From a virus: DNA of 22,398 nt. Below are positions 781 through 7,976 of this stretch, piece after piece (position 1 is the stretch's first letter; every line of letters begins with the position of its first letter). The translations under genes and the position numbers were made by a program. A model generated the notes under the pieces. It saw only the letters and a list, made by a program, of their open reading frames with translations. It was not told where the DNA came from and did no database searches. The stretch spans positions 1 through 22,398 of the IMG/VR virus record IMGVR_UViG_3300027743_000021. The stretch is one strand, 5' to 3'.

Positions 781-1551
781 CTACCCGGCAGCGCCGGGAA
801 CCTTCGTGCCGAATTCGGCGGTAGCCTTCTCCGCCGCCGGGCCGGGTTCGTCCGCCGGAATGCGTCCTTTGAGGCTTTTCCACCGGTGGAACAGGTACAA
901 CTGCGTCCACCTGGACACGTCCTCCAGCGGATCCCCCGGTTTCAAACAGGACAGGTTCAGGATGTTGACGGCTTCCTTGTCGTGCTTCGTTTCCGCGATG
1001 TTCGCCACGCGTTCGACCATTTCGCGGGGCCACTTCGAGCCGGTGGATTGCATCGGCTGTTCGGGTTCCTCGTGGTACTCTCCCTCTACCGGCATTTCCT
1101 CGGCCGGGGTCGGCTCGTATCCGGCCAGCTTCATAATCCACGAGAAGGATAGGCGGAAGGCTTTGCCTGTGGCGCGGGTGGTCGCCATCGACCGGCGGGC
1201 GTAGCGCGGGCGGCTCATCCAGGTCGGCTCGTCCGTTCCGCACAGGGCGGATGCGCCGCCGACCTGCTGGCCGTCCTTCGTCCGGATCAGCTTGACCGTG
1301 GCGAGGTAGTCACCATCTTCGGTGAGGGTTACGCTTTCCTCAATCGGCACGACGCCCAGCATGGCCCCGAGGGTAGTCCAGCCGTCCACGAAGACATACT
1401 TGCGGTCTTTGATGACCTTGTAGAGTTGGCGGGTGTTGATGAGGTCTGCCAACCCTTTGGCGAGGATGGTGGCGTTGGCTATGACCTGCGATGGGGCCAT
1501 TTCCACCTGCCCCACCATTACGATTGCGGTTCCTTTCGGTTCGTCAGTCAT
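781..1551 (-). CDS. Putative single-strand annealing (Erf/Rad52-like) protein
   Basis: 256 aa from the chosen ATG, which has a near-ideal site (AAGGAG, 6 nt spacing). A longer form starting at 1650 (289 aa, AAGGA at 8 nt, overlapping the upstream gene by 20 bases) is possible, and the extra 33 codons look codable. Visible: an N-terminal helical part, a beta-rich core with an FVDGWTTLGAMLGV segment, then RSMATTRATGKAFRLSFSWIMKLAGYEPTPAEEMP-type sequence at about residues 125-155 (only key residues cited: S-M-A-x-T-R-A-x-G-K-A and T-P-x-E-E-M). From memory, conserved Ser/Ala-x-x-Arg-Ala-x-x-Lys/Arg-Ala helices also occur in phage Erf/Sak-type recombinases. That resemblance is my inference and is not firm. 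It would anneal ssDNA during replication or recombination. Confidence 0.45.
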   Translation of the reverse strand: MTDEPKGTAIVMVGQVEMAPSQVIANATILAKGLADLINTRQLYKVIKDRKYVFVDGWTTLGAMLGVVPIEESVTLTEDGDYLATVKLIRTKDGQQVGGASALCGTDEPTWMSRPRYARRSMATTRATGKAFRLSFSWIMKLAGYEPTPAEEMPVEGEYHEEPEQPMQSTGSKWPREMVERVANIAETKHDKEAVNILNLSCLKPGDPLEDVSRWTQLYLFHRWKSLKGRIPADEPGPAAEKATAEFGTKVPGAAG

Positions 1552-1630: not shown

Positions 1631-2140
1631 TCAGTGGTCGGTATAGGCATCGTCGCCATCCTTTCCATATTGGGGAGGTTCGCCGTTCGGTTTTGATTCG
1701 CGCTCCTGCGTTGCGTCAAAATCCGGGAGTTTACCGAATGTTCCGAAGCCCGGCTCACTCATTACTTCCTCGGCGGGGCCATGATCGAAAGGGCCATATA
1801 GGGGCGGAGGATCCGGCATCGGGGGCATGTGCGGAAGGGCTTCCTGCTTGGCCGGAGGCGCTATAACCCCGATGTCAATGAGGCATTCCCGCGCCTGCGA
1901 TCGGCTGTCATCGTCGTTTGACGTGTCCGCGATGATTTGCAGCGTCGTCACGAGCGCTTCCTTTTTCTTGATGATGTTGTAGAATTGCGAAAACTCGGGT
2001 TTCTTGTCCATGGTCACTCCTATTCTGTGGGCCAGCCAGTAGGTGAAGTGCTTCCAATACTCGGCCCGCGGGTGATGATCCTGCGCCAACGTCATGGCGA
2101 TGTTTGCGACTTGCAGCAGGACGATTGGTAGGTTATTCAT
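1631..2140 (-). CDS. Hypothetical protein, first gene of the leftward operon
   Basis: 169 aa. No family recognised. The first two thirds look alpha-helical and basic; the last 60 residues are Pro/Asp-rich and probably disordered. I keep the ATG at 2140 because a GATAAT -10 box lies exactly 6 nt upstream, the same spacing seen at three other starts in this genome, which suggests a leaderless mRNA. An alternative ATG at 2011 (126 aa) has a strong internal AGGAG with 5 nt spacing and could give a second, shorter product. The gene precedes the putative annealing protein, so a replication or recombination accessory role is possible. Confidence 0.65.
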   Translation of the reverse strand: MNNLPIVLLQVANIAMTLAQDHHPRAEYWKHFTYWLAHRIGVTMDKKPEFSQFYNIIKKKEALVTTLQIIADTSNDDDSRSQARECLIDIGVIAPPAKQEALPHMPPMPDPPPLYGPFDHGPAEEVMSEPGFGTFGKLPDFDATQERESKPNGEPPQYGKDGDDAYTDH

Positions 2141-2152
2141 GCCAGTATTATC
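2141..2152 (-). promoter_or_regulatory. Leftward promoter -10 box for the 2140 gene, probable leaderless start
   Basis: On the - strand GATAAT (5 of 6 to TATAAT, at 2152-2147) is followed by six bases and then the ATG at 2140. A start site 7 nt after the -10 would fall on the A of ATG. No good -35 box is visible, and the phased operator lies about 21 bases further upstream, so the promoter may need an activator or be weak. Confidence 0.55.
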
Positions 2153-2173
2153 CTACGGTTCGGGCGGAGAAAG

Positions 2174-2201
2174 ATGAGAATCAGGTGAGAATTCCATGAG
2201 A
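2174..2201 (+). promoter_or_regulatory. Operator A, 11-bp-phased ATGAGA repeats
   Basis: Three tandem units begin at 2174, 2185 and 2196: ATGAGAATCAG, GTGAGAATTCC and ATGAGA. The period is 11 bp, one helical turn. The site lies between two divergent starts, 11 bp upstream of the -35 box of the rightward promoter. It matches the reverse complement of 3141-3168 in 22 of 28 positions, and 7946-7967 in 19 of its last 22. The likely ligand is the phage RHH protein encoded at 7735-7932 (inference). Confidence 0.75.
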
Positions 2202-2212
2202 AAAACCCGGGC

Positions 2213-2242
2213 TTGACACCGGCGCAAGAAGTGTGCAATAAT
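2213..2242 (+). promoter_or_regulatory. Strong sigma70-like rightward (early) promoter
   Basis: A perfect -35 TTGACA at 2213-2218, an 18-bp spacer, then a -10 AATAAT at 2237-2242 (5 of 6). The expected start site, 7 nt on, falls on the A of the ATG at 2249. It would drive the small leader ORF and the methyltransferase gene, perhaps also the early genes beyond. This is the best consensus promoter in the window. Confidence 0.85.
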
Positions 2243-2248
2243 TCAGGC

Positions 2249-2362
2249 ATGAAAGCTACCCGCGCAATCGGTAAAATCGTCCCTTGTTTCCAGGCCTTTG
2301 CCCCGTCACCGTCGCGGGTAGCTGAGGCTGAGGTCTGGAAAGAGAGGACGATTTTTTTATGA
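2249..2362 (+). CDS. Small leader ORF overlapping the methyltransferase start
   Basis: 37 aa, starting exactly where transcription from the TTGACA promoter should begin, so it would be translated from a leaderless mRNA. Its TGA stop overlaps the next ATG in an ATGA at 2359-2362. That next gene has only a poorly spaced purine-rich site (AGAGG, more than 10 nt away), so it may depend on coupling to this ORF. The peptide is basic at the N-terminus, has one Cys and matches no family known to me. It could be a real micro-protein, a leader peptide, or merely an untranslated leader. Confidence 0.4.
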   Translation: MKATRAIGKIVPCFQAFAPSPSRVAEAEVWKERTIFL

Positions 2363-2796
2363 CGTATACAAAAGGCAATAAAGGTGATGGGCGGCATTAT
2401 TGGCTTACTCCCCCCGAGATGTTCGAATCAATCCAAGAAGAATTTGGAATAAACTTCGATCCATGCCCGTTTCCAAGGCCAGAAGGATTTGACGGCTTGG
2501 AGATTGAGTGGGGAGGATCCTCTTATGTAAACCCGCCGTTCGGCGGATATATGGATCAAAGAAAGAAAAAGAAAATAGGCCCGACTGCGTGGGCGCGTAA
2601 GGCTATTATAGAATTCAAAAAGGGTAAGAAGGTTGTGTTTGTCTACCCAATAGACAAGTGGGTTTTGATGATGATTGAGGCCGGCGCGGAAATACGAAAT
2701 CTCGGGAATGTAAAATGGCTGGCCACAGAGGACGGGCAACCCGGTAAAGGCACCGGCCGCTGGGTTGCGGAGTTTATATTGGATCCACACAAATAG
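2359..2796 (+). CDS. dam: Phage Dam-type DNA N6-adenine methyltransferase
   Basis: 145 aa, the normal compact size for phage Dam-family (PF05869-type) enzymes, which transfer a methyl group from SAM to adenine in DNA. Visible: W-x-TPP-x-x-F at residues 15-22, FDPCP at 33-37 and the catalytic NPPF at 58-61 (the D/NPPY/F motif), followed by a Trp/Lys-rich helix and a VFVYP strand near 93-97. It is more AT-rich and Lys-rich than the structural genes, which hints at separate acquisition. It likely protects phage DNA against host restriction, or marks the nearby origin. The target sequence cannot be read from the protein. Confidence 0.85.
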   Translation: MTYTKGNKGDGRHYWLTPPEMFESIQEEFGINFDPCPFPRPEGFDGLEIEWGGSSYVNPPFGGYMDQRKKKKIGPTAWARKAIIEFKKGKKVVFVYPIDKWVLMMIEAGAEIRNLGNVKWLATEDGQPGKGTGRWVAEFILDPHK

Positions 2797-2806
2797 TCCG
2801 CGCAGA

Positions 2807-2878
2807 CCCCACCCAGCCGCGCGGACGGTACGCGAGTGCCGCGCGGTGGCAAAAAGCCTGGCAGCCTGGCTGGTGGGG
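2807..2878 (+). other. Highly structured GC-rich element
   Basis: CCCCACCCAGCC (2807-2818) pairs with GGCTGGTGGGG (2868-2878) with one bulged base. Inside are two copies of the self-complementary CCGCGCGG (2817-2824 and 2839-2846), and GCCTGGC occurs twice between 2856 and 2870. No T-run follows, so it is not a standard terminator. It may be a structured RNA, an mRNA-end stabiliser or part of the origin. Confidence 0.5.
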
Positions 2879-2903
2879 CGATGCGATTGAAAGACGGACG
2901 CAG

Positions 2904-3105
2904 TTATCCACAGGCCATCCACAGCCACCCCTTGCGGGCCAAGAACTATCTACCGGCCGGCAAACAATGTCCTTCGTTATCCAAATAACCCATACGTTAT
3001 AGTACGTTCCGCGCGTTACGCGTTGCGCCTCGGCTCGCCGCTGCAGATCACCCGGCAAAGAACACGCCGGGGCGCGGCTCGCCTTCGGCGCTGGTTTTCA
3101 ACCAG
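2904..3105. other. Candidate replication origin with DnaA boxes
   Basis: Part of a 440-base stretch (2797-3238) with no convincing gene apart from a possible 20-codon leader at 3180-3242. A perfect DnaA box TTATCCACA (2904-2912) is followed 11 bp later by CCATCCACA (2915-2923), with a near-match TTATCCAAA at 2977-2985. There are small inverted repeats, GTTAT-CCAA-ATAAC around 2976-2989 and CTGGTT-TTC-AACCAG at 3091-3105, and five CGTT motifs between 2975 and 3024. The phage has no polymerase or helicase gene, so recruiting host DnaA would fit. The origin function is inferred. Confidence 0.5.
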
Positions 3106-3140
3106 ACGGGTAATAGCGAGGCAATATACCCTGTTTATTC

Positions 3141-3168
3141 TCTCATCTGTTTCTTATCTGATTCTCAT
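3141..3168 (-). promoter_or_regulatory. Operator B, reverse-oriented phased repeat
   Basis: Read on the - strand this is ATGAGAATCAG, ATAAGAAACAG, ATGAGA: three units at 11-bp period, identical to operator A in 22 of 28 positions, with all differences in the middle. It lies between the candidate origin and the first small early gene. Unlike sites A and C, no convincing promoter is seen beside it; a TATATT -10-like box lies 13 bases to its left on the - strand. Confidence 0.72.
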
Positions 3169-3238
3169 AAATCTCCCGGATGTCAGGTGTATTCTTATTG
3201 CAGATAAGCGCATCATCTACCGGAAAGGAATGGATACC

Positions 3239-3409
3239 ATGAATACAAAAGATGCCCGCGCCGAATTTATCTATTATCGAGACCGGTGGGAAAACGCAAT
3301 GGATAGTATCCGCGACGCAAAGCCCGAAGATAAAAAACGCGCCGAAAAGACGGCGGAGTATTTCAGACGCGAACTCGAAAGGGCGAGAAAAGAGTATACC
3401 GGAAAATAG
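3239..3409 (+). CDS. Small charged helical protein
   Basis: 56 aa, almost entirely charged and alpha-helical (many Lys, Arg, Glu, Asp), probably one long helix or helical hairpin. No family recognised. The ATG at 3239 follows AAGGA at 9 nt; an in-frame ATG at 3230 is too close to that site. A 20-codon ORF (3180-3242) ends on this start with an ATGA overlap and may be a leader. It is the first gene after the candidate origin and operator B, so early expression under the RHH regulator is plausible. Confidence 0.6.
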   Translation: MNTKDARAEFIYYRDRWENAMDSIRDAKPEDKKRAEKTAEYFRRELERARKEYTGK

Positions 3410-4717: not shown

Positions 4718-4897
4718 ATGAACTGGATACTCAGGAAAATATGCGTGATGTATTACGAGTCTTTCATCCGGTCATTCCAATCATGGGTGGATGAGAAGTA
4801 CGGATACCACACTAACTATGTATTATTTATCAGGCATGGATTATTGAGAATGATGCACGAATTCGTGGAAGATATTGAGAAGGGAGAACGGCGATGA
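4718..4897 (+). CDS. Hypothetical small aromatic-rich protein
   Basis: 59 aa. The ATG at 4718 follows GAGAGGAGA. Helical, aromatic and basic, with MNWILRKICVMYYESF and FIRHGLLRMMHEFVEDIEKG. Its hydrophobic stretches are too broken for a clear membrane segment. The stop overlaps the next start (ATGA at 4894-4897). No family recognised. Confidence 0.55.
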   Translation: MNWILRKICVMYYESFIRSFQSWVDEKYGYHTNYVLFIRHGLLRMMHEFVEDIEKGERR

Positions 4898-5835
4898 GCA
4901 ACGAACTGGTAGCGGCTGTTCAGAAATACGTTGATACCGTTTTGGAAGCCAGCAACGAGGACGAGGGCAACTTTTACGTCGGCGATAATCTGGCGTACGA
5001 AGAAATGGTTGCCGCCCTCCGCGCATCCCCTGCGGCCCCCGAGGCTCCAATCATAGTTACATTATGCGGATCGACGCGCTTCAAAAAAGAGTTTGAGGAC
5101 GCTAATAAATCCGAGACGCTTGCTGGGCGGATCGTTTTATCATGCGGTGTATTTGGGCATGATCCAGACGAGCCAGAACTTTCCGACGAAGCAAAAAATG
5201 AACTGGACGAATTGCATAAGCGGAAGATTGATCTCTCCGATGAAATTTTGGTAATCAATGTGGGGGGATATATCGGGAAGTCCACTCGCGGGGAAATTGA
5301 ATATTCCAAGGCGCACGGGAAGCGTATTCGATATTTGGTTCCTGCGGCCCCCGAGGGCGGGGAGAAGTGTACCTGCGGACATGCAATTAAGGACCATTCG
5401 CAAAGCAGGGCAGATACCAACTATCAAAAAATTTGTACCCTATGCTCATGTAAAAATTTTACGTTGCTCCCCGCCTCCCCCGAGCCGACGCGGAGGGAGT
5501 TGGGGGAAAAGCCAGAATGCGATTGTGCCCCCTCGTATGAAGAGGAGGGTGGAGTATTGCGGCATGGTTGCCCGGTGCATGATCCTAAGAATTACCGTCC
5601 CGCCCAACCTGCCGCACAGAGCGCGGAGCCAAACCTGACGATAGACTTGACGGCAATATTGCCTGATATGCCAGAGTCTAAATACGTCCTCATGGCGCGA
5701 TATGTGGCGGCGCTGGAGGTGGTTGGGATGTGCGTGGAGGCGTTGCGGCGTGTAGCAAACAAATACGGGATGGATGATGGTGACCGCGCCGCCATCGCCG
5801 CCGCCTCTGCTATTCTGAAAAGGGAGGCAAAGTGA
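4894..5835 (+). CDS. Modular protein: nucleoside deoxyribosyltransferase-like domain plus Cys/His modules
   Basis: 313 aa. Residues 1-45 form a helical N-terminal part. Residues 53-148 look like a nucleoside 2-deoxyribosyltransferase/DUF4406-type Rossmann domain: CGSTRFKKEF (58-67), GRIVLSCGVFGHD, LHKRKIDLSDEILVINVGGYIGKST (about 107-131) and EIEYSKAHGKRIRYL. Two Cys/His modules follow, C159-x-C-x-H-x3-H with C181-x2-C-x-C186, and C209-x-C211 with C226-x2-H229. The last 70 residues are helical. Short AP/SP-rich linkers (near 45-52, 149-155 and 192-199) join the modules. The first domain may act on nucleotides or on nucleotide-derived signals; catalysis is unproven. The start overlaps the previous stop and the stop overlaps a GTG start. 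Confidence 0.7.
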   Translation: MSNELVAAVQKYVDTVLEASNEDEGNFYVGDNLAYEEMVAALRASPAAPEAPIIVTLCGSTRFKKEFEDANKSETLAGRIVLSCGVFGHDPDEPELSDEAKNELDELHKRKIDLSDEILVINVGGYIGKSTRGEIEYSKAHGKRIRYLVPAAPEGGEKCTCGHAIKDHSQSRADTNYQKICTLCSCKNFTLLPASPEPTRRELGEKPECDCAPSYEEEGGVLRHGCPVHDPKNYRPAQPAAQSAEPNLTIDLTAILPDMPESKYVLMARYVAALEVVGMCVEALRRVANKYGMDDGDRAAIAAASAILKREAK

Positions 5836-6869: not shown

Positions 6870-7738
6870 GGGTACAGCTTGTGATCCACAGCCAACGTCT
6901 TTAGAATAGCGTCCTTGTCGGCCTTATCCCACGGATCAGGGGGAATGGGCGCTTCCTTGCCAACCCATACGTTGTAAGCCGCCTCATCCCCGTTGAATAT
7001 GCTGTAATCGTAGTGATCCTTGGCACCGGGCAGGTATATCCCGGATTGCATCTGCCAGAATGACCATTCCTCGGGCTTCAACCCGGGCGGTCGGTTCCCG
7101 GCCCACGCGATCGGTGAGCCTTCCGGCGTCCACTTCTCCCATTCCTCCCACGTCTCCATAACCACGCTTTCGGCCTTTAGGGACGGATATGCTGCAATCC
7201 ACGGCTTACGGGCGCGGAAGGGCCAATCCTTCAACTTGCAGGCCGATTCCGGGAACCATGCGTAAGTGTAAAGCTCCAACTGACGGAGCATGGCGAGGTC
7301 TTTGTGTTCCAGCATGTAGTTTGCAGCGTTCAGGTTCTTGGCCGGGGCTGCCTGGGGGACGTCCGCCCAAGGGATTTCCCCCCGGGAGGCCTTCGCCCAT
7401 GCCGCCCAATCCCCCCATGTTTGCTCCCAATCCAGTAAGCCGACCTCTACCCCCAGCCGCTTCAACTGGCCGGCGAACCGCTGTACTTGCGCCTCGAGAG
7501 GCTGAACCGGATCGGCCCAATGATAAAGGGACACGTCCCAGCCGGCGGCGCGGAAGTAGTTAGCGTACCATTCGACGGTGTCGAAGGCCTTGTTATTCAT
7601 CCAGCGATAGTCCAGCCCGCCCCCCATGCTGGCCTTTATGCAGGCGTGCCGGAAGCCGTGGTCGTACATGGCCTGCAGGGGGAGGGAGAAGCCCGGATAG
7701 TAGTTTCCTGAGTAGAGGTCGATGGCGTAGATATTCAT
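6866..7738 (-). CDS. GH25-family muramidase endolysin
   Basis: 290 aa from the ATG at 7738. The GH25 (lysozyme 1,4-beta-N-acetylmuramidase) pattern is seen in order: an N-terminal IYAIDLYSGNY with Asp7, FRHACIKAS (31-37), GWDVSLYHW (66-74), the acidic pair Asp103/Glu105 in LLDWEQ, a PWIAAYP strand, and near the end WSFWQMQSG plus DYSIFNGDEAAY. It would cut the peptidoglycan glycan backbone to release progeny. No signal peptide, so it should need the holin. The last 25 residues are a short Pro/Asp-rich tail, not an evident wall-binding domain. The start overlaps the RHH regulator stop (ATGA at 7738-7735), an unusual pairing. Confidence 0.88.
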   Translation of the reverse strand: MNIYAIDLYSGNYYPGFSLPLQAMYDHGFRHACIKASMGGGLDYRWMNNKAFDTVEWYANYFRAAGWDVSLYHWADPVQPLEAQVQRFAGQLKRLGVEVGLLDWEQTWGDWAAWAKASRGEIPWADVPQAAPAKNLNAANYMLEHKDLAMLRQLELYTYAWFPESACKLKDWPFRARKPWIAAYPSLKAESVVMETWEEWEKWTPEGSPIAWAGNRPPGLKPEEWSFWQMQSGIYLPGAKDHYDYSIFNGDEAAYNVWVGKEAPIPPDPWDKADKDAILKTLAVDHKLYP

Positions 7739-7932
7739 TTCGTCAAAATCCTCATGTTTTGGAAGGGGCAAACCGGGGCGTTTTCTTTCGTGAATTGCAC
7801 GGCAGCAAATCGTACCAGAAAACGGATAGCTTCCGCGCCGCTCATACCTAATTTAGCAGACACGATAGCAATATTTTCTTTATCCTCTGATTTTATCTTG
7901 AATGTGAAGGTCGTGCCTTTTTTGAATGTCAT
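7735..7932 (-). CDS. Ribbon-helix-helix (Arc/CopG-type) regulator
   Basis: 65 aa. A beta strand (TFTFKIK, residues 8-14) is followed by helix 1 (SEDKENIAIVSAKLG), a turn with Met-Ser-Gly, and helix 2 (AEAIRFLVRFAAVQF), the standard RHH layout in which dimers put paired strands into the DNA major groove. I choose the ATG at 7932 because a TACAAT -10 box lies exactly 6 nt upstream; an ATG at 7947 would add five residues. Operator C begins at the upstream ATG, so autoregulation is likely. The C-terminal 20 residues are extra and unassigned. It is translationally coupled to the endolysin. Confidence 0.75.
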   Translation of the reverse strand: MTFKKGTTFTFKIKSEDKENIAIVSAKLGMSGAEAIRFLVRFAAVQFTKENAPVCPFQNMRILTK

Positions 7933-7947
7933 ATGTACATTGTACAT
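7933..7947. promoter_or_regulatory. 15-bp perfect palindrome over the RHH promoter and start
   Basis: ATGTACA-T-TGTACAT, two 7-base arms around a single base. On the - strand it includes the TACAAT -10 box (7944-7939), placed exactly 6 nt before the ATG at 7932. A symmetric site here could bind a dimeric repressor and block the promoter. It abuts operator C. Confidence 0.55.
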
Positions 7948-7967
7948 CAGATTAGAGTTCCATGAGA
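7946..7967 (+). promoter_or_regulatory. Operator C, phased repeat between divergent starts
   Basis: Matches the last 22 bases of operator A in 19 positions, including the shared TTCCATGAGA end. Two units at 11-bp spacing are clear (ATTAGAGTTCC, ATGAGA); the third is degenerate. It lies 9 bp upstream of the -35 box of the rightward promoter, nearly the same geometry as operator A (11 bp), and upstream of the RHH gene on the other strand. Confidence 0.75.
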
Positions 7968-7976
7968 GTTTGCCTA

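Follow-up and report, generated by a model that had tools for sequence, protein, structure and literature searches.

Studied bacterial oriCs carry 5–19 DnaA boxes (PMC4285127). In Rep/iteron plasmid origins of the pRA2 type (PMC1950889) a single TTATCCACA box lies beside the control region of a circular replicon. In E. coli, ribonucleotide reductase (RNR) is under DnaA control, and the DnaA regulon proposed for Caulobacter includes dnaB (PMC8203912). In phages, DnaA boxes occur together with direct and inverted repeats in the injection stop region of T5 (PMC13250531), and a phage origin with DnaA boxes called by Ori-Finder has been reported (PMC11512268). Literature queries that paired DnaA boxes with phage replication, or with the box sequence, gave nothing.

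The locus analysed here, a noncoding gap in the genome of a small tailed phage, resembles the bacterial oriC in having the TTATCCACA box, a helically phased neighbour and an AT-rich patch nearby. However, it has one strong box as against at least five, it has no dnaA or dnaN neighbours and no significant skew switch, and the cluster of 5–19 boxes of an oriC-type, DnaA-only origin is not found in it. It also shares with the pRA2-type origins the single box beside the control region of a circular replicon, but no Rep protein was detected in the phage and the gap is without iterons.

The window, that is the whole stretch of DNA analysed, is 22,398 bases long and comprises the entire virus record IMGVR_UViG_3300027743_000021. 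A 127-bp direct terminal repeat is present at its ends, which gives a genome of 22,271 bp, circular or circularly permuted, and justifies speaking of a circle for this phage. The window covers a complete, circular genome of a tailed phage with a G+C content of 56% (mean A+T 44%), containing genes for the major head protein, tape measure, portal and terminase large subunit along with genes for a holin-like protein, a GH25 lysozyme and a Dam-like methylase. The closest named relatives of the terminase share only ~35% identity with it. Searches for relatives using TerL, MCP and the 781–1551 protein among viral contigs, and using MCP among genome contigs, returned no close ones, and the window DNA had no match among phage records. 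No syntenic relative with the same gap was found; the gap is not common to any of 33 relatives of the methylase or of 80 relatives of the 781–1551 protein.

Scans of the phage with PHROG, Pfam and NCBIfam profiles revealed no polymerase, helicase, primase or initiator family. DNA polymerase A, DNA polymerase B, DnaB and phage integrase had no match in the genome, and neither did the Rep3 and AAA_25 profiles in six frames. An earlier note on this DNA had stated that the phage shows no polymerase, helicase or primase gene; the profile scans confirm this at the family level, for Rep genes as well. Judged by its gene content, the phage would have to borrow the fork enzymes of its host.

The longest noncoding gap of the genome (Table 1) falls in the early/regulatory region of the map; the Dam-like methylase gene borders it on the left, and a run of small early genes follows on the right. 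Open reading frames within it match no PHROG family, in agreement with the earlier description of a 440-base stretch without a convincing gene; the gap measures 434 bp. The right ~100 bp of the gap (3138–3230) belongs to the promoter and operator of the next gene, which leaves ~2797–3110 as the stretch that calls for explanation.

Table 1. Coordinates of the features discussed in the text (window numbering).
Feature	Position	Strand	Remarks
phrog_19042 protein	781–1551	-	probable recombination/ssDNA-annealing type, from gene neighbours
Operator A, three heptads every 11 bp	2174–2202	+	just upstream of near-consensus promoter 2213–2242
Dam-like DNA adenine methyltransferase	2359–2796	+	left border of gap
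Longest noncoding gap of the genome	2797–3230		from gap list; candidate control/replication region
GC-rich imperfect hairpin CCCCACC...GGTGGGG	2807–2879		between methylase stop codon and doublet; z -1.9 (+ strand), marginal
Perfect DnaA box TTATCCACA	2904–2912	+	sole exact copy in genome
Doublet TTATCCACAGGCCATCCACAG, 21-mer	2904–2924	+	perfect box plus degenerate box
Degenerate second box CCATCCACA	2915–2923	+	two mismatches; 11 bp downstream, same strand
AT-rich patch	2960–3009		62% A+T against genome mean of 44%; possible unwinding element beside boxes
CGTT cluster, n = 5	2975–3024	+	at 2975, 2995, 3005, 3014 and 3021; last four spaced ~10 bp
Weak box TTATCCAAA	2977–2985	+	one mismatch
Operator B, ATGAGAA/ATAAGAA/ATGAGAG every 11 bp	3140–3168	-	upstream of small gene starting at 3230–3239
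Presumed ribbon-helix-helix (RHH) regulator, 70 aa	7735–7947	-	weak RelB/DinJ similarity, E 0.031
Operator C, two heptads	7951–7968	+	upstream of presumed RHH gene
Terminase large subunit	19.3–20.8 kb		

The gap contains one exact DnaA box, one box with one mismatch and two with two mismatches. The perfect box of the earlier note is present and unique in the genome, and the near-match reported at 2977 is also found. The second box, said to lie 11 bp further on, has the claimed spacing but is degenerate. An exact box appeared in 8 of 3000 dinucleotide shuffles of the gap, whereas an exact box with a same-strand neighbour (two mismatches or fewer, within 20 bp) appeared in none of the 3000. The 21-mer doublet was absent from shuffles of the window even when 3 mismatches were allowed. 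The doublet is not a chance occurrence.

Recurrence of the doublet in other genomes points in the same direction. The viral search word TTATCCACAGGCNATCCACAG, with 20 fixed bases and N at one position of the 21-mer, gave 21 exact matches among the collected viral sequences, and the reversed-word control gave none. These matches typically lie inside gene-free arrays of TTATCCACA; at least two exact copies are present within 1 kb in 15 of the 21, and the arrays are often phased at 11 bp or its multiples. One match is in coding DNA, presumably by coincidence. By contrast, viral DNA retrieved through protein similarity (861 kb) contained 7 exact boxes against 6.3 expected, with the doublet in one locus. 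Gene-free arrays of 3–8 exact boxes occur at nine loci in unrelated phages (at 2509–2675 in one of them, L035), among them T7-like phages that encode a polymerase. Phages sharing the doublet or the box in such gene-free, often 11-bp phased arrays include T7-like phages (Molineuxvirinae VLCpiA2a and PmP19; Berlinvirus P483 and A7), T5-like phages, Lactococcus groups (949-like) and Arthrobacter phages. Unlike these arrays, several of which belong to phages with their own polymerase and helicase, the present gap has a single exact box in a genome without replisome genes. In two of the array-bearing viral records, a DnaB-type helicase is encoded as well as DNA polymerase A. Since arrays are also found in phages with their own replisome, boxes alone do not indicate a DnaA-driven origin.

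A search of 84,980 genomes of bacteria and archaea gave 11 occurrences of the exact 21-mer, five of them upstream of dnaB or RNR genes: the gene is dnaB in three Paracoccus, that of a class I RNR in a MAG of the Chromatiaceae, and that of an RNR relative in a further gammaproteobacterial MAG. The presence of such a genomic context in three independent lineages makes a DnaA role likely, and the 21-mer upstream of these genes is likely to be a DnaA-regulated promoter element. The solitary bacterial doublets look like promoter sites rather than origins. The phage has the identical solitary 21-mer as the upstream regions of Paracoccus dnaB and gammaproteobacterial RNR (nrdAB), but it is followed by neither a replication gene nor a clear promoter, the next gene starting ~310 bp away. 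The doublet contains a consensus box, is non-random and recurs both in the box arrays of phages and in dnaB/RNR promoters; it is predicted to be a DnaA element, very likely bound by the DnaA of the host.

A second AT-rich patch (3120–3169, 66% A+T) overlaps operator B. The clustered CGTT motifs pointed out earlier are indeed present, and five copies in 50 bp were reached in none of 1000 shuffles, a post hoc statistic because the cluster had been noticed before the test. The cluster was judged too short to count as iterons; only two-copy direct repeats are present within 2100–3300, and no repeat family in the gap reaches three copies. As to the several inverted repeats of the earlier note, repeats do exist but they are imperfect, and folding is only marginally above shuffles: the gap as a whole reaches z -1.6 as RNA and -2.4 as DNA, hairpin 2797–2886 reaches -1.9 (+ strand) and hairpin 3005–3115 reaches -1.3 (+ strand) and -2.4 (- strand), both marginal. 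The gap has no IHF consensus, no Rfam match and no promoter of 9/12 or better, the best score inside it being 8/12 at 2974–3003. BLAST of the gap against plasmids gave chance-level pieces only, and a 27-mer from the CGTT region had no match.

Because no polymerase, helicase, primase or initiator is recognisable in the phage, initiation by host DnaA is the most likely use of the doublet, and we tentatively regard the gap as a plausible candidate for a DnaA-dependent origin of replication. Host DnaA would nucleate at the strong box and its helically phased weak partner, with a second weak box 60 bp away, and might then open the adjacent AT-rich patch. It would also bring in the host replisome, with loading of the helicase, perhaps assisted by a not-yet-recognised phage protein bound nearby. 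The heptad operators would serve ordinary transcription control of early genes and stand outside this initiation device. The location of the sole exact box in the longest gap, the lack of any phage replication family and the AT-rich patches (62–66%) near the boxes make such an origin plausible. It is only plausible, however, given one strong box, no iterons, no IHF consensus, no Rep and no relative sharing the gap; there are too few boxes to call an origin from sequence alone. Of the earlier proposal of a host-DnaA-dependent origin, DnaA binding is well supported by the recurrence of the doublet, but the origin, with its one strong box, is only a candidate. That a complete 22-kb tailed phage without an initiator replicates from a minimal two-box site for host DnaA, placed in its only large noncoding gap, with all fork enzymes coming from the host, appears unlikely to us.

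The GC-skew check suggested along with that proposal counts neither way. Detrended GC skew has its minimum at 1141 and its maximum at 6883, but it tracks gene orientation, and at fourfold-degenerate sites of + strand genes no significant switch is seen (P 0.39). As the skew follows gene direction, it argues neither for nor against an origin at the gap.

It is also conceivable, though somewhat unlikely, that the gap is a DnaA-responsive regulatory or titration site, at which bound DnaA adjusts transcription of adjacent genes or is simply sequestered. Replication would then begin at some other place, by recombination or from a transcription-primed start, for instance. The solitary doublets upstream of bacterial dnaB and RNR genes, whose control by DnaA is known or proposed (PMC8203912), the box arrays of phages with complete replisomes and the recombination-type protein encoded at 781–1551 are all consistent with this reading. 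However, no good promoter adjoins the boxes, the distant next gene is not a replication gene, and a single strong box would be a poor titrator. An improbable alternative is an origin of the plasmid kind, where a phage initiator that has escaped recognition binds the CGTT cluster and DnaA only assists, as in Rep-plus-DnaA origins. The cluster, with its ~10-bp steps, does lie beside the doublet and overlaps the AT-rich patch, and many early phage genes are without an assigned function; the failure of the Rep3 and AAA_25 profiles, the want of a repeat family in the gap and the post hoc nature of the cluster statistic weigh against it.

Presence of DnaA boxes among the repeats of the T5 injection stop region, and of box arrays near the genome ends in some phages, raises the question of whether the gap is a packaging or injection site (pac/cos-like or similar to the T5 injection stop) with boxes incidental to replication. 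The terminase genes are distant, however, and the circular assembly puts no terminus in the gap, so that this seems very improbable. Finally, chance might have placed a single box-like sequence without any DnaA-binding function in a long intergenic region. A shuffled genome is expected to contain 0.08 exact boxes, and the second box and the third are degenerate, but the doublet is never reproduced in gap shuffles and the exact 21-mer recurs in DnaA contexts against an empty reversed-word control, which leaves this explanation quite improbable.

If DnaA does start this phage, it would be a very small DnaA-dependent replicon with one strong box and no Rep, and a good test of how few elements suffice for an origin and of the way in which DNA is copied in small tailed phages that lack replication genes. 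Even if the gap is no origin, the 21-base doublet, present in unrelated phages and in dnaB/RNR promoters, would be a reusable DnaA element. At the same time, phages with complete replisomes carry more boxes than this one, which cautions against reading phage DnaA boxes as origins.

Homologues of the 781–1551 protein are encoded on Thiothrix and Leptospira plasmids, beside Gp157-family or PD-(D/E)XK nuclease genes. Another 80 homologues come from viral loci, and in some of these a helicase, exonuclease or Prim-Pol gene is close by. In phages as in these plasmids, the homologues belong to recombination modules. The family has a conserved motif, YARRSMAxTRA. Its gene context suggests that the protein likely has a recombination or ssDNA-annealing role, and phrog_19042 is possibly a single-strand annealing protein family; the predicted structure was unusable (pLDDT 36). 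The Thiothrix plasmids carrying a homologue (21.6 and 26.6 kb) were considered as phage-plasmid relatives and rejected, since Rep genes are present; terminase, capsid and portal genes are missing from their annotation, and they lack an exact DnaA box. Elsewhere in the phage, the first half (VTLCGSTRFKKEF...) of the 313-aa product of 4894–5835 (+) resembles by eye a nucleoside 2-deoxyribosyltransferase-type domain, for which Pfam and PHROGs gave no match in this product.

The pattern ATGAGAA-N4-ATGAGAA, with heptads every 11 bp, has only three occurrences in the genome, namely operators A, B and C, and the phased heptads recall tandem-heptad RHH operators. The single-sequence model of the 7735–7947 protein (pLDDT 54) is too weak for a fold search, so the RHH assignment rests on the weak RelB/DinJ match. 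Location of operator C upstream of this gene suggests autoregulation, and the three operators together suggest one autoregulated repressor of early transcription, presumably this protein. Operator-like repeats do lie at the right edge of the gap, as had been claimed for operator B. However, the further proposal that an RHH protein could govern initiation is not borne out: the operators are beside gene starts, none overlaps the boxes, and B is 217 bp from the doublet. Control of the CopG/RHH kind would place an operator over the initiation site or a Rep promoter, which is not the case for operator B, and no Rep gene is present downstream of it.

Just downstream of operator A, a promoter (TTGACA-18-AATAAT with TGn, 11/12) is located at 2213–2242. 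It is followed, before the methylase ATG, by a very stable hairpin of ~80 nt (z -5.0) with seven T at its end. One arm of an 11-bp perfect inverted repeat (2254–2264/2313–2323) lies in the loop of this hairpin, which makes a pseudoknot possible within 2213–2358. This region is a candidate for a ~110-nt small RNA or an attenuator under operator A.
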